In this document: piece after piece, positions 13,481 to 24,540 of the stretch
How the letters are laid out: every line of letters starts with the position of its first letter
Numbering within the stretch: position 1 is the first letter of the stretch
Origin: Melioribacteraceae bacterium
GTDB taxonomy: Bacteria > Bacteroidota > Ignavibacteria > Ignavibacteriales > Melioribacteraceae
Assembly (NCBI GenBank): GCA_021647785.1
Contig: JAKIUC010000020.1
Location: forward strand, 1-64,000
Reading direction: 5' to 3'
Length of the DNA: 64,000 nt
Made by a program: the position numbers and the translations under genes
Notes under the pieces: model-generated
The model's input: only the letters and a program-made list of their open reading frames with translations
Told to the model about the DNA's origin: nothing
Databases searched by the model: none

Positions 13481-16432
13481 ATGAAAAAAACAATTCTTAT
13501 AATCTTAATTATGTTAATAACGTTTATCGTTAGCTTAGCACAAACGTCAGAGTTTTTCGATAAGGTTAATTATAAAGGTGCATTCGGTTCATCAAACTGG
13601 ATGAAAGGCTGGACTGCACTTGACCATTATTCATATCTTGCAGCAAATAAAGTATCGGCTAATACTGTAACAGTTACAGATGCAGATATAAATTCTGGCG
13701 ACCAAATTTATTGGACAGCAAACAACACCTATATTTTAGATGGTTTTGTTTATGTTGAAGATGCTGCCGTTCTTAACATTGAAGCTGGTACAGTAATTAA
13801 AGGTAAAGCAGGGCAGGGTGAAAGTGCTTCAGCTTTAATTATTACTAAGGGTGCAAAAATATTTGCGGAAGGTACGGCAGATAGCCCTATTATCTTTACA
13901 GCAGAAAGCGATGATGTAAATAATCCTGCCGATTTAATTTTACCTGCAACTAACCTTTGGGGCGGAATAATTATACTTGGCAAAGCTCAAATTAATACTT
14001 CAGCCGGAATAGGAAATATTGAAGGTATTCCTGTTGAATCAAGAACAGAATATGGTGGAACTGATGATAATGATAATTCAGGTGTTTTAAGATATGTTTC
14101 TATTCGTCATGGTGGAACAGATATTGGCTCTGGTAAAGAGATTAACGGACTTACTCTTGGTGGTGTAGGTAGAGGAACAACTATTGATTACGTTGAAGTA
14201 TTTCAAAACAATGATGATGGCTTTGAATGGTTTGGCGGAACTGTAAACGCAAAGCACTTAGTCTCTGCCTTTAATGCTGATGATGCTTTTGACCATGATG
14301 AAGGATTACGTGGAAAAATGCAGTTCTTATTTGTAATTCAAGATGTAGATTTTGGTAACAGAACTGGCGAGCATGATGGCGGAACAGATCCTGAAGATGG
14401 TACTCCCTTTGCATATCCTAATACTTATAATGCAACTTTCTTAGGTTCGGGAATGAGTTCTACAAATCCGGATAACGATTATGCATTTAAGATTAGAGAT
14501 AATTGGGGTGGTTCTTATAAAAACTCTATCTTTGGTGACTTTGCTGGAATAGCAATGGATATTGAAGATTTAGAATCAGGGCAAGATGCAAAACAAAGAT
14601 TAGATGATGGAGAGATAATTTTTGAAAACAATATTTGGTTTAAATTTGGTGGCGGTAGTGATTTTAATGCTCTTGGAAAACACGACTACGAAAGTGCATA
14701 CCTGAATAATGCAAATAATGGAAACACAATTGAAGACCCGCAATTAGCAGGAATTTCTAGAGATGCTTATGCAGAATCATTAGACCCTACTGTTACTGGT
14801 GGTTCAGCAGCATATAATAATTTAGCAGAGTACCCAGCTGGGGATGATTTTTTTGATATTGTAAATTATAAGGGTGCTTTTGGTCAAACTAACTGGATGA
14901 AAGGTTGGACAGCTTTAGATCATTATGGATATATTTCTACTGGGAAAACTTCTGCAAACATAATATCAGTTGTTGATTCAGATATAAATTCTGGCGACCA
15001 AATATACTGGACAGTTGATAACACATATATTTTAGATGGTTTTGTATATGTTGAAGATGGTGCAGTTCTTAACATAGAAGCAGGTACTATAATTAAAGGT
15101 AAGGCAGGGCAAGGTGAAAGTGCTTCTGCTCTAATTATTACTAAAGGTGCTAAATTGTTTGCAGAAGGTACAGGTGTAAACCCTATTATTTTTACAGCAG
15201 AAAGTGATGATGTAACGGACCCAACCGATTTAGTTTTGCCTGCAACTAATCTTTGGGGTGGTTTAATTATACTTGGTAATGCTCAAATTAATACTTCATC
15301 CGGGGTTGGAAATATTGAAGGTATTCCTGTTGAACCAAGAACTGAGTATGGTGGCACTAATGATAATGATGGCTCAGGAGTTTTAAGATATATTTCCATT
15401 CGTCATGGTGGTACAGATATTGGCTCTGGTAAAGAAATTAATGGTATAACTCTTGGTGGTGTTGGGTATGGAACTACATTAGATCACATCGAAGTTTTTC
15501 AAAACAATGACGATGGCTTTGAGTGGTTTGGCGGAAAACCAAAAGGGAAATATTTAGTATCTGCTTTTAATGCAGATGATGCTTTCGACCACGATGAAGG
15601 TCTCAGAAGTTTCATGCAATTTTTATTTGTAATTCAAGATGCCGATTTTGGCAACAGAGTTGGAGAACATGATGGAGGCACTGACCCAGAAGATGGTACT
15701 CCTTTTGCATTCCCGCAATCGTATAATGTTACTTATTTAGGATCTGGAATAAACTCGACCAACCCTGATAATGATTATGTATTTAAGATTAGGGATAATT
15801 GGGGTGGTTCTTATAAAAACTCTATCTTTGGTGACTTTGCTGGAATAGCAATGGATATTGAAGATTTAGCATCAGGACAAGATTCGAAGCAAAGATTAGA
15901 TGATGGTGAAATTATTTTTGAAAATAATATTTGGTTTAATTTTGGTGGCGGTAGTGATTTTAATACACTTGGAAAACATGACCACGAAAGTGCATACTTA
16001 AATGATGCAAGTAATGGAAACAGAATTGAAAATCCGCAATTAGCTGGAATATCAAGAGAGCCATATTCTGAAGGCATAGACCCACGTCCAATTGCTGGTG
16101 GAGTGGCTTATCAAAATATTGGTGATTATGTGACAAGTGTAAAAAGAATTAGTGGAGTTGATATAGTTTCCGATTATCAGTTATCACAAAACTATCCTAA
16201 CCCCTTTAATCCAAGCACAAAAATTCAATTTTCAGTACCAAAACAATCTATGGTTAGCTTAACAGTTTATAATATACTTGGACAAAAAATTTCAACACTT
16301 GTAAGTGATGTTAAAACTGCTGGTAGTTACGAATTAAATTTTAATGCATCTAAATTATCTTCAGGTGTTTACATATATCGATTAGAATCAGAAAATAATT
16401 CAATAACAAAGAAAATGACGTTGCTTAAGTAG
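13481..16432 (+). CDS. T9SS-exported protein of two 432-residue repeats (predicted beta-helix)
   Basis: A 983-residue secreted protein of unknown function. After a signal peptide (1-20) come two tandem copies, residues 25-456 and 457 to about 890, both starting FFDxVNYKGAFG and sharing WMKGWTALDHY, FVYVEDxAVLNIEAGTxIKG, NNDDGFEWFGG and RDNWGGSYKNSIFGDFAG. The Gly/Asn/Asp-rich, strand-turn character suggests a right-handed beta-helix. The last 85 residues are a T9SS sorting domain (NYPNPFNPSTKIQFSVP, then YNILGQKI and KKMTLLK), so it should be exported and anchored or released at the cell surface. RBS AGGAG precedes the ATG. It sits between two TonB-dependent receptors and ends at a strong terminator. 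Confidence 0.88.
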   Translation: MKKTILIILIMLITFIVSLAQTSEFFDKVNYKGAFGSSNWMKGWTALDHYSYLAANKVSANTVTVTDADINSGDQIYWTANNTYILDGFVYVEDAAVLNIEAGTVIKGKAGQGESASALIITKGAKIFAEGTADSPIIFTAESDDVNNPADLILPATNLWGGIIILGKAQINTSAGIGNIEGIPVESRTEYGGTDDNDNSGVLRYVSIRHGGTDIGSGKEINGLTLGGVGRGTTIDYVEVFQNNDDGFEWFGGTVNAKHLVSAFNADDAFDHDEGLRGKMQFLFVIQDVDFGNRTGEHDGGTDPEDGTPFAYPNTYNATFLGSGMSSTNPDNDYAFKIRDNWGGSYKNSIFGDFAGIAMDIEDLESGQDAKQRLDDGEIIFENNIWFKFGGGSDFNALGKHDYESAYLNNANNGNTIEDPQLAGISRDAYAESLDPTVTGGSAAYNNLAEYPAGDDFFDIVNYKGAFGQTNWMKGWTALDHYGYISTGKTSANIISVVDSDINSGDQIYWTVDNTYILDGFVYVEDGAVLNIEAGTIIKGKAGQGESASALIITKGAKLFAEGTGVNPIIFTAESDDVTDPTDLVLPATNLWGGLIILGNAQINTSSGVGNIEGIPVEPRTEYGGTNDNDGSGVLRYISIRHGGTDIGSGKEINGITLGGVGYGTTLDHIEVFQNNDDGFEWFGGKPKGKYLVSAFNADDAFDHDEGLRSFMQFLFVIQDADFGNRVGEHDGGTDPEDGTPFAFPQSYNVTYLGSGINSTNPDNDYVFKIRDNWGGSYKNSIFGDFAGIAMDIEDLASGQDSKQRLDDGEIIFENNIWFNFGGGSDFNTLGKHDHESAYLNDASNGNRIENPQLAGISREPYSEGIDPRPIAGGVAYQNIGDYVTSVKRISGVDIVSDYQLSQNYPNPFNPSTKIQFSVPKQSMVSLTVYNILGQKISTLVSDVKTAGSYELNFNASKLSSGVYIYRLESENNSITKKMTLLK
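13553..16140 (+). repeat. Internal tandem duplication (about 1296-nt unit) within the T9SS gene
   Basis: Unit 1 runs 13553-14848 and unit 2 from 14849 to about 16140. Similarity is uneven at DNA level: around 14505-14605 and 15782-15882 the copies are almost identical over about 100 bases, including silent positions, while the segment around 14700-14830 has diverged from its partner. That pattern fits a duplication with later local gene conversion. Confidence 0.85.
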
Positions 16433-20798: not shown

Positions 20799-21821
20799 CT
20801 ATCTTTCCATTCCAAGTATGTCTTGGATGTGAAGCATTCCAATAACTTTGTTACTACTTGTTACAACAACACTATTTATTGGGTTGCTTTGGAAAATGTT
20901 ATTAGCATCATTTAATAATTCATTTTCATCAATAGTAAAAGGTTTTACAAGAGTTAAAACATCTGAAACTTTTTTGTTTATAGAGTCTGCTCCTTTATTA
21001 GCTAACAAACGTCTTAAATCACCATCTGTAAAAATTCCGATAGCTTCGTTGTTTGTGTCAACTATTGTAACTGCACCAAATTTACCAACTGTCATTTTAA
21101 GCAAACATTCTGATATTGTATTATCAGTAGTGGCTGTTGGGTTATCATTTCCAAGAACATCTTTTATTTTATACGTCATTAAACGAGTATGCTCTACAAA
21201 TTGCTGTGTTCCTAAATCAGTAAGATTATTTTTCGTCATTTGTTTAATAACATTCCAAGGTGCTGTAATTGTGTGAGCACCAATGTTCAAAGCGTTTCTA
21301 ACGTGTTCAATATTGCGAACAGATGAGAACATAATTTTAGTCTCATACCCATAATAGTTAACTGCTTCTACGCATTGTTCAATAAGTATAAGGGCATCGT
21401 GCCCCTGGTCTTGTAGTCTTCCAACAAGCGGGCATACATAAGTTGCACCAGCTTCCATTGCCATGTATGCTTGCTGCAAAGTATAAACAAGATGGATGTT
21501 TACTTTAAATCCTGCATCGGTTAGTTTTTTACACGCCTTAACACCTTCTAAAGAAATTGGAATTTTATAAACAGTAGTCTCTTTGTTAAGACCTAAAGCA
21601 TCTTGTCGGTTAACTTCTGCAATTATTTCTTCTGCATTGTTACCAAGTGCTTCAATTTGAAGAACGGGAACAATGTTTGAAAGTTCAATTATTGTGGCAT
21701 CAATATCCGTAATTCCGTGACGGTGCATAAATGTTGGTGTTGTTGTTAAGCCTGAAAGAAAACCTAATTCAAAGGCTTCTTTAATTTCTTCCATATTGGC
21801 TGAGTCTAAATATAATTCCAT
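20799..21821 (-). CDS. Transaldolase/fructose-6-phosphate aldolase domain fused to KdsD-type CBS pair
   Basis: A 340-residue two-part protein. Residues 1 to about 212 are a transaldolase/FSA barrel: MELYLDSAN with Asp6, Schiff-base Lys86 in TVYKIPIS, LVYTLQQA, CPLVGRLQDQG, SSVRN. The usual Asn of the TTNPT motif is Thr28 (TTTPT). Residues 217-340 are two CBS motifs with GIFTDGDLRR (262-271) and GMLHIQDIL (328-336), which are the signature sequences of the C-terminus of KdsD, the arabinose-5-phosphate isomerase of Kdo synthesis. It is the third gene of kdsB-kdsA-this gene, 29 bases after kdsA. My inference is that it makes arabinose 5-phosphate for KdsA by aldol chemistry (glycolaldehyde plus glyceraldehyde 3-phosphate) or transaldolation, regulated through the CBS pair. 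A plain aldolase with a borrowed regulatory domain is the alternative. Confidence 0.85.
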   Translation of the reverse strand: MELYLDSANMEEIKEAFELGFLSGLTTTPTFMHRHGITDIDATIIELSNIVPVLQIEALGNNAEEIIAEVNRQDALGLNKETTVYKIPISLEGVKACKKLTDAGFKVNIHLVYTLQQAYMAMEAGATYVCPLVGRLQDQGHDALILIEQCVEAVNYYGYETKIMFSSVRNIEHVRNALNIGAHTITAPWNVIKQMTKNNLTDLGTQQFVEHTRLMTYKIKDVLGNDNPTATTDNTISECLLKMTVGKFGAVTIVDTNNEAIGIFTDGDLRRLLANKGADSINKKVSDVLTLVKPFTIDENELLNDANNIFQSNPINSVVVTSSNKVIGMLHIQDILGMER

Positions 21822-21850
21822 GATTTACATCTCTGTTTATTTATAATAAT

Positions 21851-22684
21851 TTATTTTCTGTATTTAACTTCTACGTTGTGTATTTCAATTAAAGGTTTTA
21901 AAAATTCTTCAAGTAAAGTAATGTCTAATTGGCTTGCAGCATCGCAAAGTGCTTCGCTTGGGCAAGGGTGGGTTTCAATAAAAATTCCATCAACACCAGA
22001 AGCAACGCCAGCTCTGCCAAGTACTGGTAAGTATTGGCGCGCACCGCCAGAGGGGTCAGAACTTGGAATTCCATATTTTCTGATTGCGTGTGTAACATCA
22101 AACACAACTGGATAGCCGGTTTCATTTAAATGATAAAAACTTCTGGGGTCAACAATTAAATCGTTGTAGCCAAATGTGTAGCCACGTTCTGTTAAAATAA
22201 TATTACTGTTTCCATTTGCTTCAATTTTTTGAACTGGTTTAATCATATTTTCAGGAGCAAGAAACTGTCCGTGTTTAAGATTTATAACTCGTCCGCTTTT
22301 TGCAGCTTCGGTTACAAGAGTTGTTTGCATTACGAGGTATGCGGGTATTTGTATAATATCAACAACATCAGCCGTTGGTTTAATTTGATTGGGATAGTGA
22401 ATATCAGTAAGTAGTGGAAAGCCAAATTCACTTTTTACTTTTTGAAGAATACGTAAGCCTTCATCTATTCCGGGTCCCATATAATAATCAACAGAACTTC
22501 TGTTATCTTTTTGAAATGATGATTTGTAAACAAGAGGAATATTTAATCTTTCAGAAATTATTTTTAGTTCCTCAGCAACCTTCATCATTATGCTTTCATC
22601 TTCAATAACACATGGTCCCGAGATTAAAAATAATTCATCCGCACCACATTCTATATTTCCAACTTTAACTTTTTTCTTACTCAT
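21851..22684 (-). CDS. kdsA: 3-deoxy-8-phosphooctulonate (Kdo-8-P) synthase
   Basis: Condenses phosphoenolpyruvate with D-arabinose 5-phosphate to Kdo 8-phosphate, the committed step to the LPS inner-core sugar Kdo. The 277-residue protein has KSSFQKDNRSS, GFPLLTDIHYP, LKHGQFLAPENM, FDVTHAIRKYG and the C-terminal ETHPCPSEALCD. Cys25 in SGPCVIEDE matches the metal-dependent class (as in Aquifex); the E. coli-type metal-independent enzymes have Asn there. Its ATG overlaps the kdsB stop codon (ATGA), so translation is coupled. Confidence 0.95.
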   Translation of the reverse strand: MSKKKVKVGNIECGADELFLISGPCVIEDESIMMKVAEELKIISERLNIPLVYKSSFQKDNRSSVDYYMGPGIDEGLRILQKVKSEFGFPLLTDIHYPNQIKPTADVVDIIQIPAYLVMQTTLVTEAAKSGRVINLKHGQFLAPENMIKPVQKIEANGNSNIILTERGYTFGYNDLIVDPRSFYHLNETGYPVVFDVTHAIRKYGIPSSDPSGGARQYLPVLGRAGVASGVDGIFIETHPCPSEALCDAASQLDITLLEEFLKPLIEIHNVEVKYRK

Positions 22685-23445
22685 AATTCTATTTCCTCTT
22701 TACACATTCTTTTTCTGATATTTTCTAAATCTTTTTCTGTATCAACTGAAATGCTATCAAACTCAGTAATAGCAACATTAATAGGATATCCATTTTCAAT
22801 CCAGCGGTTTTGCTCAAGCCCTTCAATCAATTCCAATTTTGATTGCTCTAAGTTTGCAACTTTTTCTAAAGTATCGGGCTTATAAGCATACATCCCGATA
22901 TGTGAATAATAATCTGTTTTACCAAACCACTCAGATTTATCAAGTCCTTTAACTGCGGGTATTGGGGTTCGGCTAAAATAGATTGCCTTCATATTTACAT
23001 CAAAAATTACAAATGCATTGGTTTTGCTATTTAACTCTTCAGCATCTGTTACTTCTGTTACTAAAGTAGCAATTTCAGTTTTGGAATTATCAAAGCAACT
23101 CATCAATTCCAACAGTTGGCTTGGTTCCAACATTGGTTCATCACCTTGAATATTTATTACAACATCAAATTTAGTCTCATGTTTTTTTTGAATAATTTCA
23201 TACGCTTCAAGACAGCGGTTTGTTCCGGAATTGTGATGGTGAGATGTCATTACAACTTTTCCGCCAAATTCTAAAACTACATCTTCAATTCGCTTATCGT
23301 CTGTAGCTATGTAAATATTTTCCAATACTTTAGCCGAACGTTCGTAAACGTGCTGTATCATTGGCTTTCCGCAGATATCGGCAAGAGGTTTCCCTTCCAA
23401 TCTTGTTGAGCCATAACGTGCAGGAATAATTCCTAAAAAATTCAT
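22681..23445 (-). CDS. kdsB: CMP-Kdo synthetase (3-deoxy-manno-octulosonate cytidylyltransferase)
   Basis: Activates Kdo as CMP-Kdo for transfer to lipid A. Motifs: IPARYGSTRLEGKPLADI at the N-terminus (CTP binding), INIQGDEPML, YFSRTPIPA, HIGMYAYKPDTL and EGLEQNRWIENGYPI. I start at the ATG at 23445 (254 residues). The in-frame TTG nine bases upstream has no better ribosome-binding site. It is the first gene of a three-gene operon with kdsA and the transaldolase/CBS gene; the phosphatase KdsC and a conventional KdsD are not in the window. Confidence 0.95.
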   Translation of the reverse strand: MNFLGIIPARYGSTRLEGKPLADICGKPMIQHVYERSAKVLENIYIATDDKRIEDVVLEFGGKVVMTSHHHNSGTNRCLEAYEIIQKKHETKFDVVINIQGDEPMLEPSQLLELMSCFDNSKTEIATLVTEVTDAEELNSKTNAFVIFDVNMKAIYFSRTPIPAVKGLDKSEWFGKTDYYSHIGMYAYKPDTLEKVANLEQSKLELIEGLEQNRWIENGYPINVAITEFDSISVDTEKDLENIRKRMCKEEIEL

Positions 23446-23514
23446 ATTAACCAAATAAATTGAAATGCAAAGATAATGAAAATTACAATAATCAATTATA
23501 AAGGAATTACAAGG

Positions 23515-23562: not shown

Positions 23563-24540
23563 CTAAATTTGTTCGGAAAAAAGTTTTTTAATAAAATTGA
23601 AATCTTCATCAGTCAATGGTTTTTCAGCGGCAGATAAATTTATTTTAACTTGTTCTAAATTTCTGAACCCAGGTATAACAGCACCCACCACTTTGTAATG
23701 AAGTAAATATTGCTGTGCCGCTCTTGCTAAATCTTCAGTAGTACTACCAAATCTTTCTTTAAGCTGATTAAGTCTCCACTCAATTTTTTCAAGATAATCA
23801 GTTTTAAATTTATAATTTCTACTTCTGTGATCGCCAGATTCAAATTGTGGCGGATTATTTTTATTATATTTATCCAACAAAATCCCTTGTGCCAAAGGGG
23901 AGAACGCAATAAAGGAAATACTATTCTCTTCCAATATTTTTCTAACTGGAGTTCCATCAGCAAGGTAGTGGTCATCAATAGCATTTGCAGAACTTTGAAG
24001 AACATCTGGCTTTACTTTGGGAACAAGTTTTTGAAAATCCTCATTTGAATAAGCAGATTGTCCAATCAATCTGATTTTACCCTCCTCCTTTAAACGATAC
24101 ATAGTTTCAATAGCATCATCAAGATACTCATCGTTATCACCAAAATATCCGTGATGGAAATAGTAAATGTCAATGTAATCGCGGTTTAAATTAATTAGAG
24201 ACTGTTCACATTGATGCCGTATATGTGCAGGTTCGTAAGCATTGGCTGCCGTTCCGGAAAACCAACCAACTTTAGTTGCAATAACAAATTGATTTGTTCT
24301 GTTACCTAAAATTCGTGAAAGCATCCTTTCGGCACGACCGTTTCCATATATATCGGCATTATCGAAATGTGTAACACCGCAATCAATTCCATAGTTAATT
24401 GCTTTTGTAATTTCGTTTTCATCAACATTAGCCCAACCAATGGATGTTCCATTCTGCCAATTAAGTCCGCCCATAGTCCAGCAGCCGAGACTGATTTCTG
24501 AAATCTCTATATTGCTTTTCCCTAGTTTTCTATATTTCAT
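23563..24540 (-). CDS. Aldo/keto reductase
   Basis: NAD(P)H-dependent carbonyl reductase of the AKR superfamily (TIM barrel, 325 residues). The catalytic tetrad is visible: Asp and Tyr in THFDNADIYGNGRAE, Lys in FVIATKVGW, His in YYFHHGYF. The cofactor-binding C-terminal part contains GAVIPGFRNLEQVKINL. The overall form (GCWTMGGLNW, RLIGQSAYSNEDF) matches the YghZ/YccK-like group of stress-related AKRs. The substrate is unknown. It is monocistronic, divergent from the DUF3078 gene. Confidence 0.93.
   Translation of the reverse strand: MKYRKLGKSNIEISEISLGCWTMGGLNWQNGTSIGWANVDENEITKAINYGIDCGVTHFDNADIYGNGRAERMLSRILGNRTNQFVIATKVGWFSGTAANAYEPAHIRHQCEQSLINLNRDYIDIYYFHHGYFGDNDEYLDDAIETMYRLKEEGKIRLIGQSAYSNEDFQKLVPKVKPDVLQSSANAIDDHYLADGTPVRKILEENSISFIAFSPLAQGILLDKYNKNNPPQFESGDHRSRNYKFKTDYLEKIEWRLNQLKERFGSTTEDLARAAQQYLLHYKVVGAVIPGFRNLEQVKINLSAAEKPLTDEDFNFIKKLFSEQI

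Follow-up and report, generated by a model that had tools for sequence, protein, structure and literature searches.

The fusion gene and its place in the Kdo operon

The sugar 3-deoxy-D-manno-oct-2-ulosonic acid (Kdo) is essential to the outer membrane, and its textbook synthesis has a single entry, the conversion of ribulose 5-phosphate to arabinose 5-phosphate (A5P) by KdsD. We analyzed a 64,000-nucleotide window from a Melioribacteraceae bacterium (positions 1 to 64,000 of contig JAKIUC010000020.1, assembly GCA_021647785.1), in which an operon on the minus strand runs head to tail from kdsB through kdsA to a gene, 30 bp further on, that encodes a transaldolase-type domain joined to a CBS pair of the KdsD type (Table 1). 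The original prediction, made from the sequence alone, had described this gene (hereafter, the fusion) as a transaldolase/fructose 6-phosphate aldolase (FSA) domain fused to a KdsD-type CBS pair behind kdsB and kdsA, and the open reading frames (ORFs), Pfam, NCBIfam and structural models agree with that description.

Table 1. Coordinates of the Kdo genes and of the two parts of the fusion in the window
Feature	Position	Strand	Remarks
TAL/FSA-CBS fusion gene	20799..21821	-	340 aa; proposed A5P-forming KdsD replacement
Transaldolase/FSA TIM-barrel domain	21177..21821	-	Residues 1-~215 of fusion; Schiff-base K86
KdsD-type CBS pair	20799..21182	-	Residues 214-340 of fusion; FTDGDLRR motif; putative regulatory site
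kdsA, Kdo 8-phosphate synthase, fusion-associated subtype (KDNRS, PAYLxM)	21851..22684	-	
kdsB, CMP-Kdo synthetase	22681..23454	-	In-frame ATG at 23445

The N-terminal part of the fusion matches Pfam TAL_FSA (PF00923) over residues 3-226 (E = 1.6e-35; 123 bits against a gathering threshold of 27), and the C-terminal part matches two Pfam CBS domains (E = 3.6e-15). The KpsF/KdsD model TIGR00393 matches only at model positions 154-268, which is its CBS half (E = 3e-20). The KdsD character of this half is apparent from profile, motif and structure comparison: the KdsD CBS structures 4o9k and 3k2v were among the best matches in a profile search with the CBS part, 3k2v and 4o9k took the first two places in Foldseek, and the motif TDGDLRR, nearly complete in 19 of 19 KdsDs, is kept, while the second-CBS motif LHxHD of KdsD has become (D/H)xQD. 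The fusion has in common with KdsD, KpsF and GutQ the C-terminal CBS pair with TDGDLRR, the place in the Kdo pathway and, as we propose, the product A5P. Unlike them, it lacks the SIS domain, with the catalytic residues K59, E111, E152 and H193 of E. coli KdsD; residues 1-215 are instead TAL_FSA, whose TIM barrel is of the transaldolase type and bears a Schiff-base lysine.

AlphaFold models show a CBS pair and a TIM barrel, the latter matching transaldolases with Z 29. Nearest in both sequence and fold are the small decameric-type transaldolases of B. subtilis (3r8r), T. maritima (1vpx) and T. acidophilum (3s0c), with 34-38% identity, Z 29 and a root-mean-square deviation of 1.4 over 194 residues; they share the catalytic D, E, K and N and the phosphate site with the fusion, but have no fused CBS pair. 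E. coli FSA, which also lacks a CBS pair, is 25% identical in structural alignment, and the fusion falls far below the cut-off of the fructose 6-phosphate aldolase equivalog TIGR00875 (163 versus 246 bits).

Twenty other loci encode full-length homologs (57-83% identity), and the fusion was found in 70 of 73 genomes that have the KdsA subtype described below. Because the full-length gene recurs in dozens of genomes, it is not an artifact; a chimeric assembly, a frameshift or misjoined ORFs are ruled out. The neighboring KdsA scores above the cut-off of the Kdo 8-phosphate synthase model TIGR01362 (324 versus 314 bits), and the kdsB product, a member of the ordinary family, is above the cut-off of the kdsB NCBIfam model. 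No Rfam family and no tRNA lies near these three genes in the window.

Most genomes with the fusion lack KdsD

The original prediction held that KdsD is replaced by the fusion and would be missing from this genome, and both profile searches and an inventory of SIS proteins bear it out. In the source assembly, which is 99.2% complete, the KdsD model found only the CBS part of the fusion and weak, unrelated matches. The SIS proteins of this assembly comprise GmhA, MurQ, an AgaS-family protein, two regulators of the RpiR type and GlmS, the last recognized from its length and its pair of SIS domains; as every one of them belongs to another family, a hidden KdsD was rejected, SIS-only forms included. 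Because the genome also encodes WaaA (PF04413, Kdo transferase-type), the organism presumably needs Kdo.

The same pattern holds on a larger scale, with KdsD absence again judged by profile searches of assemblies. Among 296 genomes of the phylum, each at least 90% complete, the fusion occurs in 5, KdsD in 211 and KdsA in 218. KdsD is encoded by none of the five KdsA-positive genomes with the fusion and by 209 of the 213 without it (Fisher p = 3e-8, uncorrected for relatedness and only a guide, as the genomes are related and the counts are not independent events). The four KdsA-positive genomes with neither enzyme have an ordinary KdsA, and in one of them a fragment resembling the KdsD CBS part lies at the end of a contig. 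Within the family of the window (code f1), KdsD is present in 15 of 17 genomes; of the other two, one is without both KdsA and KdsD, and the second is the source genome, with the fusion. No KdsD above cut-off was detected in any of 21 fusion genomes reached through two routes. The predicted co-occurrence with kdsA and kdsB in the absence of KdsD was found on a large scale, and a normal kdsD in the source genome without any such pattern, which would have spoken against replacement, was not.

KdsD and the fusion appear to serve the same KdsA subtype

KdsAs adjoining the fusion are 70-89% identical to the window KdsA in genomes labelled Chlorobiota, Flavobacteriales and Cytophagales, but in those members of the window's own family that have KdsD, KdsA is only ca. 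46% identical to it. The 16 KdsAs linked to the fusion group in a single clade, which sits on a branch of 0.9 changes per site (SH-aLRT 99), and the transaldolase domains of 21 fusions likewise form one clade. Because each forms a single clade, kdsA and the fusion appear to have spread together.

With this KdsA as bait we searched 395 genomes of another class, and a few genomes (G091, G146, G190, G249 and others) are shared between this sample and those described above; some genomes (G) and loci (L) are the same organisms, for example G517 and L026. The subtype is carried by 71 of them, about a fifth, and is almost always paired with a proposed A5P source that differs from KdsD. Together with two carriers already known, this gives 73 genomes from about 19 family codes, of which 66 have the fusion only, four have both enzymes, two have KdsD only and one has neither. 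The last, G610, is 62% complete and belongs to the same genus as three of the genomes with both.

The two KdsD-only genomes, G249 and G635, are from one genus and are both 99% complete, G249 as one contig. Their clusters read kdnA-like, kdnB-like, kdsA, kdsC-like, (one large ORF in G635), kdsB; that of G091 reads kdnA-like, kdnB-like, (small ORF), kdsA, fusion, kdsC-like, kdsB. Nothing but the fusion has dropped out of the cluster, and elsewhere in both genomes there is an intact KdsD, which keeps each of the five active-site residues compared with E. coli. The KdsA of G249 and G635 has the subtype motifs KDNRS and PAYLCM, and a relative that shares their family code, G190, combines the fusion with this KdsA subtype and lacks KdsD. 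With the fusion gone from its slot where an intact KdsD is present, it seems that either enzyme can take the place of the other in supplying a single subtype of KdsA. This natural swap is the best argument that the product of the fusion is A5P.

Active-site residues of the fusion

Alignment to E. coli TalB and FsaA supports the assignment of Lys86 as the Schiff-base residue, as had been predicted: it aligns with TalB K132 and FsaA K85 and is invariant in 56 fusions. Further residues in common with TalB are Asp6 (D17), Glu57 (E96) and Asn108 (N154), and the acceptor phosphate site is intact, with Arg135 (R181), Ser167 (S226) and Arg169 (R228). The fusion departs from TalB at Thr28 (N35), His110 (T156), Cys130 (S176) and Leu132 (F178). 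Kept and changed states alike are invariant in 56 of 56 fusion sequences (54 unique), whereas plain transaldolases have N28, T110 and F132 in 43 of 43 cases and S130 in 41 of 43; in all, at 27 positions the 21 fusions compared are fixed for one residue and the 43 plain transaldolases for another, N28T, T110H, S130C and F132L among them. The EC 2.2.1.2 signature (Asn35/Thr156/Ser176/Phe178 in TalB numbering) therefore reads T/H/C/L in all fusions. The FSA signature of Gln59 and Tyr131 does not apply either, the fusion having E57 and L132. With E. coli FsaA and FsaB it shares the fold, Lys85/86, Asp6, Arg134/135 and Ser166/167, and it differs from FSA by Q59 to E57, L107 to N108, T109 to H110, A129 to C130, Y131 to L132 and N28 to T28.

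The Protein Data Bank holds TalB mutants at these same positions (N35A, T156A, S176A, F178Y, E96A, D17A). The active site is remodeled at the very positions that a switch to another donor would be expected to affect, since N35 and S176 of TalB hold the C1 hydroxymethyl group of the dihydroxyacetone donor, a group that glycolaldehyde lacks; the acceptor phosphate site is untouched. At the position of Cys130, the FSA variant A129S is said, in the title of a paper, to have better affinity for dihydroxyacetone. The equivalent of Asp6 serves C-C bond making in transaldolases.

Proposed reaction

We propose that the fusion is a non-orthologous replacement of KdsD, a Lys86-dependent aldolase that supplies A5P to KdsA, most likely from glycolaldehyde and glyceraldehyde 3-phosphate (GAP); we give this reading a probability of roughly 0.6. 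Its parts differ in strength. That the fusion is the A5P source for Kdo synthesis is very likely, given the swap with KdsD, and most probably it makes A5P by a C-C-bond-forming reaction unlike that of KdsD. For glycolaldehyde plus GAP as the physiological reaction, which fits both precedent and the active-site changes, we consider the chances even. Glycolaldehyde would form a Schiff base and enamine with Lys86, and the enamine would add to D-GAP, its phosphate held by Arg135, Ser167 and Arg169; the D-threo stereochemistry of FSA would yield exactly D-arabinose 5-phosphate, to be released and used by the neighboring KdsA. The CBS pair probably senses a late product such as CMP-Kdo, which would provide feedback control. 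The full picture of a natural, dedicated A5P aldolase acting on glycolaldehyde and GAP, with CMP-Kdo feedback through a CBS pair taken from KdsD, is tentative and falls a little short of even odds.

A5P is an established substrate or product of the transaldolase/FSA scaffold. E. coli FsaA is reported to form A5P as sole product from glycolaldehyde and GAP, from which TalB F178Y is reported to form A5P and ribose 5-phosphate (R5P) (PMC9947464), and the title of PDB entry 3upb describes a transaldolase in covalent complex with A5P. For FsaA and FsaB, glycolaldehyde is reported as the preferred donor and GAP as the preferred acceptor (PMC6298115), in keeping with the remark in the original prediction that E. 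coli FSA is known to accept glycolaldehyde. The F178Y change, which makes a transaldolase an A5P-forming aldolase, lies at the position of L132; TalB F178Y is engineered and gives R5P as well, whereas the fusion has a natural Leu and three further changes. The prediction also knew of no description of such a Kdo branch, and we found no description of a dedicated natural A5P-forming transaldolase-type enzyme in Kdo synthesis in open-access full texts, although a subscription paper could exist, and no open-access paper joining transaldolase with kdsA or kdsD, or CMP-Kdo with CBS.

Several points weigh against the aldolase reading. Its weak point is the supply of glycolaldehyde, for which we identified no steady source at the flux of Kdo synthesis; folate synthesis alone is probably too small. 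E57 and N108 are transaldolase-like rather than like Q59 and L107 of E. coli FSA. The fusion and an intact KdsD occur together in G532, G553 and G627, of one genus, and in G608. (The KdsD genes of G608 and G532 lie a few genes from a homolog of LptB.) Finally, the window KdsA departs from the conserved A5P-site motifs KANRS and PAFLxR, having KDNRS and PAYLxM (A61D, R120M, K139H and Q205R in E. coli numbering for the subtype), and the changes to KDNRS and PAYLxM recur in 30 of 30 further fusion-associated KdsAs, so A5P as the acceptor is not strictly proven. This last worry is answered by G249 and G635, in which the same changes are paired with KdsD.

A simple ketose-aldose isomerization via the Schiff base was rejected on chemical grounds, as it would give an amino sugar. 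An unlikely, but still the strongest, alternative is that the fusion converts R5P to A5P without releasing glycolaldehyde. Lys86 would form its Schiff base at C1 of R5P, and the C2 epimer would be reached either by retro-aldol cleavage and re-addition from the opposite face or by deprotonation and reprotonation at C2 with His110 as the base. Such an enzyme would need only a central metabolite, and it would account for the invariant new His110 in place of Thr; moreover, TalB F178Y, altered at the counterpart of the changed L132, gives both A5P and R5P, so that one transaldolase site can reach both epimers. FSA is nevertheless stereoselective for A5P, and the retention of Asp6 favors real aldol chemistry over simple epimerization.

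Less probable again is that the fusion is a transaldolase or aldolase acting on an octulose 8-phosphate, whose dihydroxyacetone half it would transfer or split off to leave A5P. Transketolase makes D-glycero-D-ido-octulose 8-phosphate with glucose 6-phosphate as acceptor, and A5P would be carbons 2-6 of that glucose 6-phosphate. It is on record that a transketolase forms this octulose 8-phosphate from glucose 6-phosphate and fructose 6-phosphate, and that the L-type pentose phosphate scheme includes A5P among its intermediates (PMC5854111). Free glycolaldehyde would not be required, and the catalytic Glu57 and Asn108 are as in transaldolases. However, T156 and F178 are replaced in every fusion, as are N35 and S176, which in TalB bind the dihydroxyacetone C1 hydroxymethyl group.

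The fixed changes in KdsA (KANRS to KDNRS, PAFLxR to PAYLxM, Q205 to R) could mean that the fusion feeds KdsA a sugar phosphate other than A5P and that the end product is a Kdo analog. We regard this as improbable: in G249 and G635, which lack the fusion, the same changed KdsA is paired with an intact KdsD, which implies A5P and weakens the changes as proof of another sugar, and KdsB is of the ordinary family. Least credible of all is an ordinary second transaldolase that lies beside kdsA by chance while an unrecognized isomerase makes A5P, for although most genomes of the phylum, the source genome included, already have a plain transaldolase, the KdsD-type CBS pair, the operon position, the pattern of replacement, which spans about 19 family codes, and the non-transaldolase active-site residues argue against it.

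If the fusion is a natural A5P aldolase, it would explain how Kdo is made in these genomes without KdsD, and would be a case in which one enzyme has been exchanged for another with the regulatory domain in common. As a dedicated aldolase it would give Kdo and lipopolysaccharide synthesis a second, non-isomerase entry in a large share of Bacteroidota, and it would tie outer-membrane synthesis to the recovery of glycolaldehyde. In synthetic glycolaldehyde assimilation, an A5P aldolase with very high affinity for glycolaldehyde has been named as a pathway improvement (PMC9947464).

Neighboring genes

Of the 70 genomes that have both, 37 have the fusion immediately downstream of kdsA, and 43 have it within 4 kb of kdsA and on its strand. 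Among 40 loci read, there are 33 in which at most four ORFs separate the fusion from kdsA, kdsB or a KdsC-like gene. Next to unlinked fusions, a partner gene that would reveal the donor was sought, and only unrelated housekeeping genes were found; one such unlinked fusion, that of G190, is followed downstream by a gene for a QueE-like radical SAM protein (L093:6649-7251).

A divergent KdsC-like HAD phosphatase of about 230 aa adjoins the fusion or kdsA at L015:7024-7707, L017:1435-2157, L143:8011-8727 and about 26 more loci, and is absent beside the window's kdsB-kdsA-fusion genes. The two members scanned had no Pfam match and score 42-50 bits with the KdsC model, below its cut-off of 107, and similarly with the KDN-9-phosphatase model. 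The family is probably the Kdo 8-phosphate phosphatase of the fusion module.

Genes for a DegT aminotransferase and an iron alcohol dehydrogenase, so assigned by domain family, adjoin this KdsA subtype in several fusion clusters (L015, L018-L021, L026, L027, L029, L092, L143, L146, L227, L233 and L237). They are putative KdnA/KdnB genes: by domain family they resemble the pair that makes 8-amino-Kdo in Shewanella, and in part of the fusion clusters they lie next to kdsB/kdsA. To our knowledge, KdnA/KdnB genes have rarely been noted in Bacteroidota. No kdnA or kdnB homologs lie beside the window's genes; the rest of the source genome was not searched for them.

Just upstream of kdsB in the window, on the same strand, is an aldo/keto reductase gene (23563-24540), which was not found adjoining the fusion in the other loci compared. 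Farther off, window positions 13481-16432 encode a secreted protein of 983 aa with two nearly identical halves and a C-terminal sorting-type domain (YPNPFNPSTKI).

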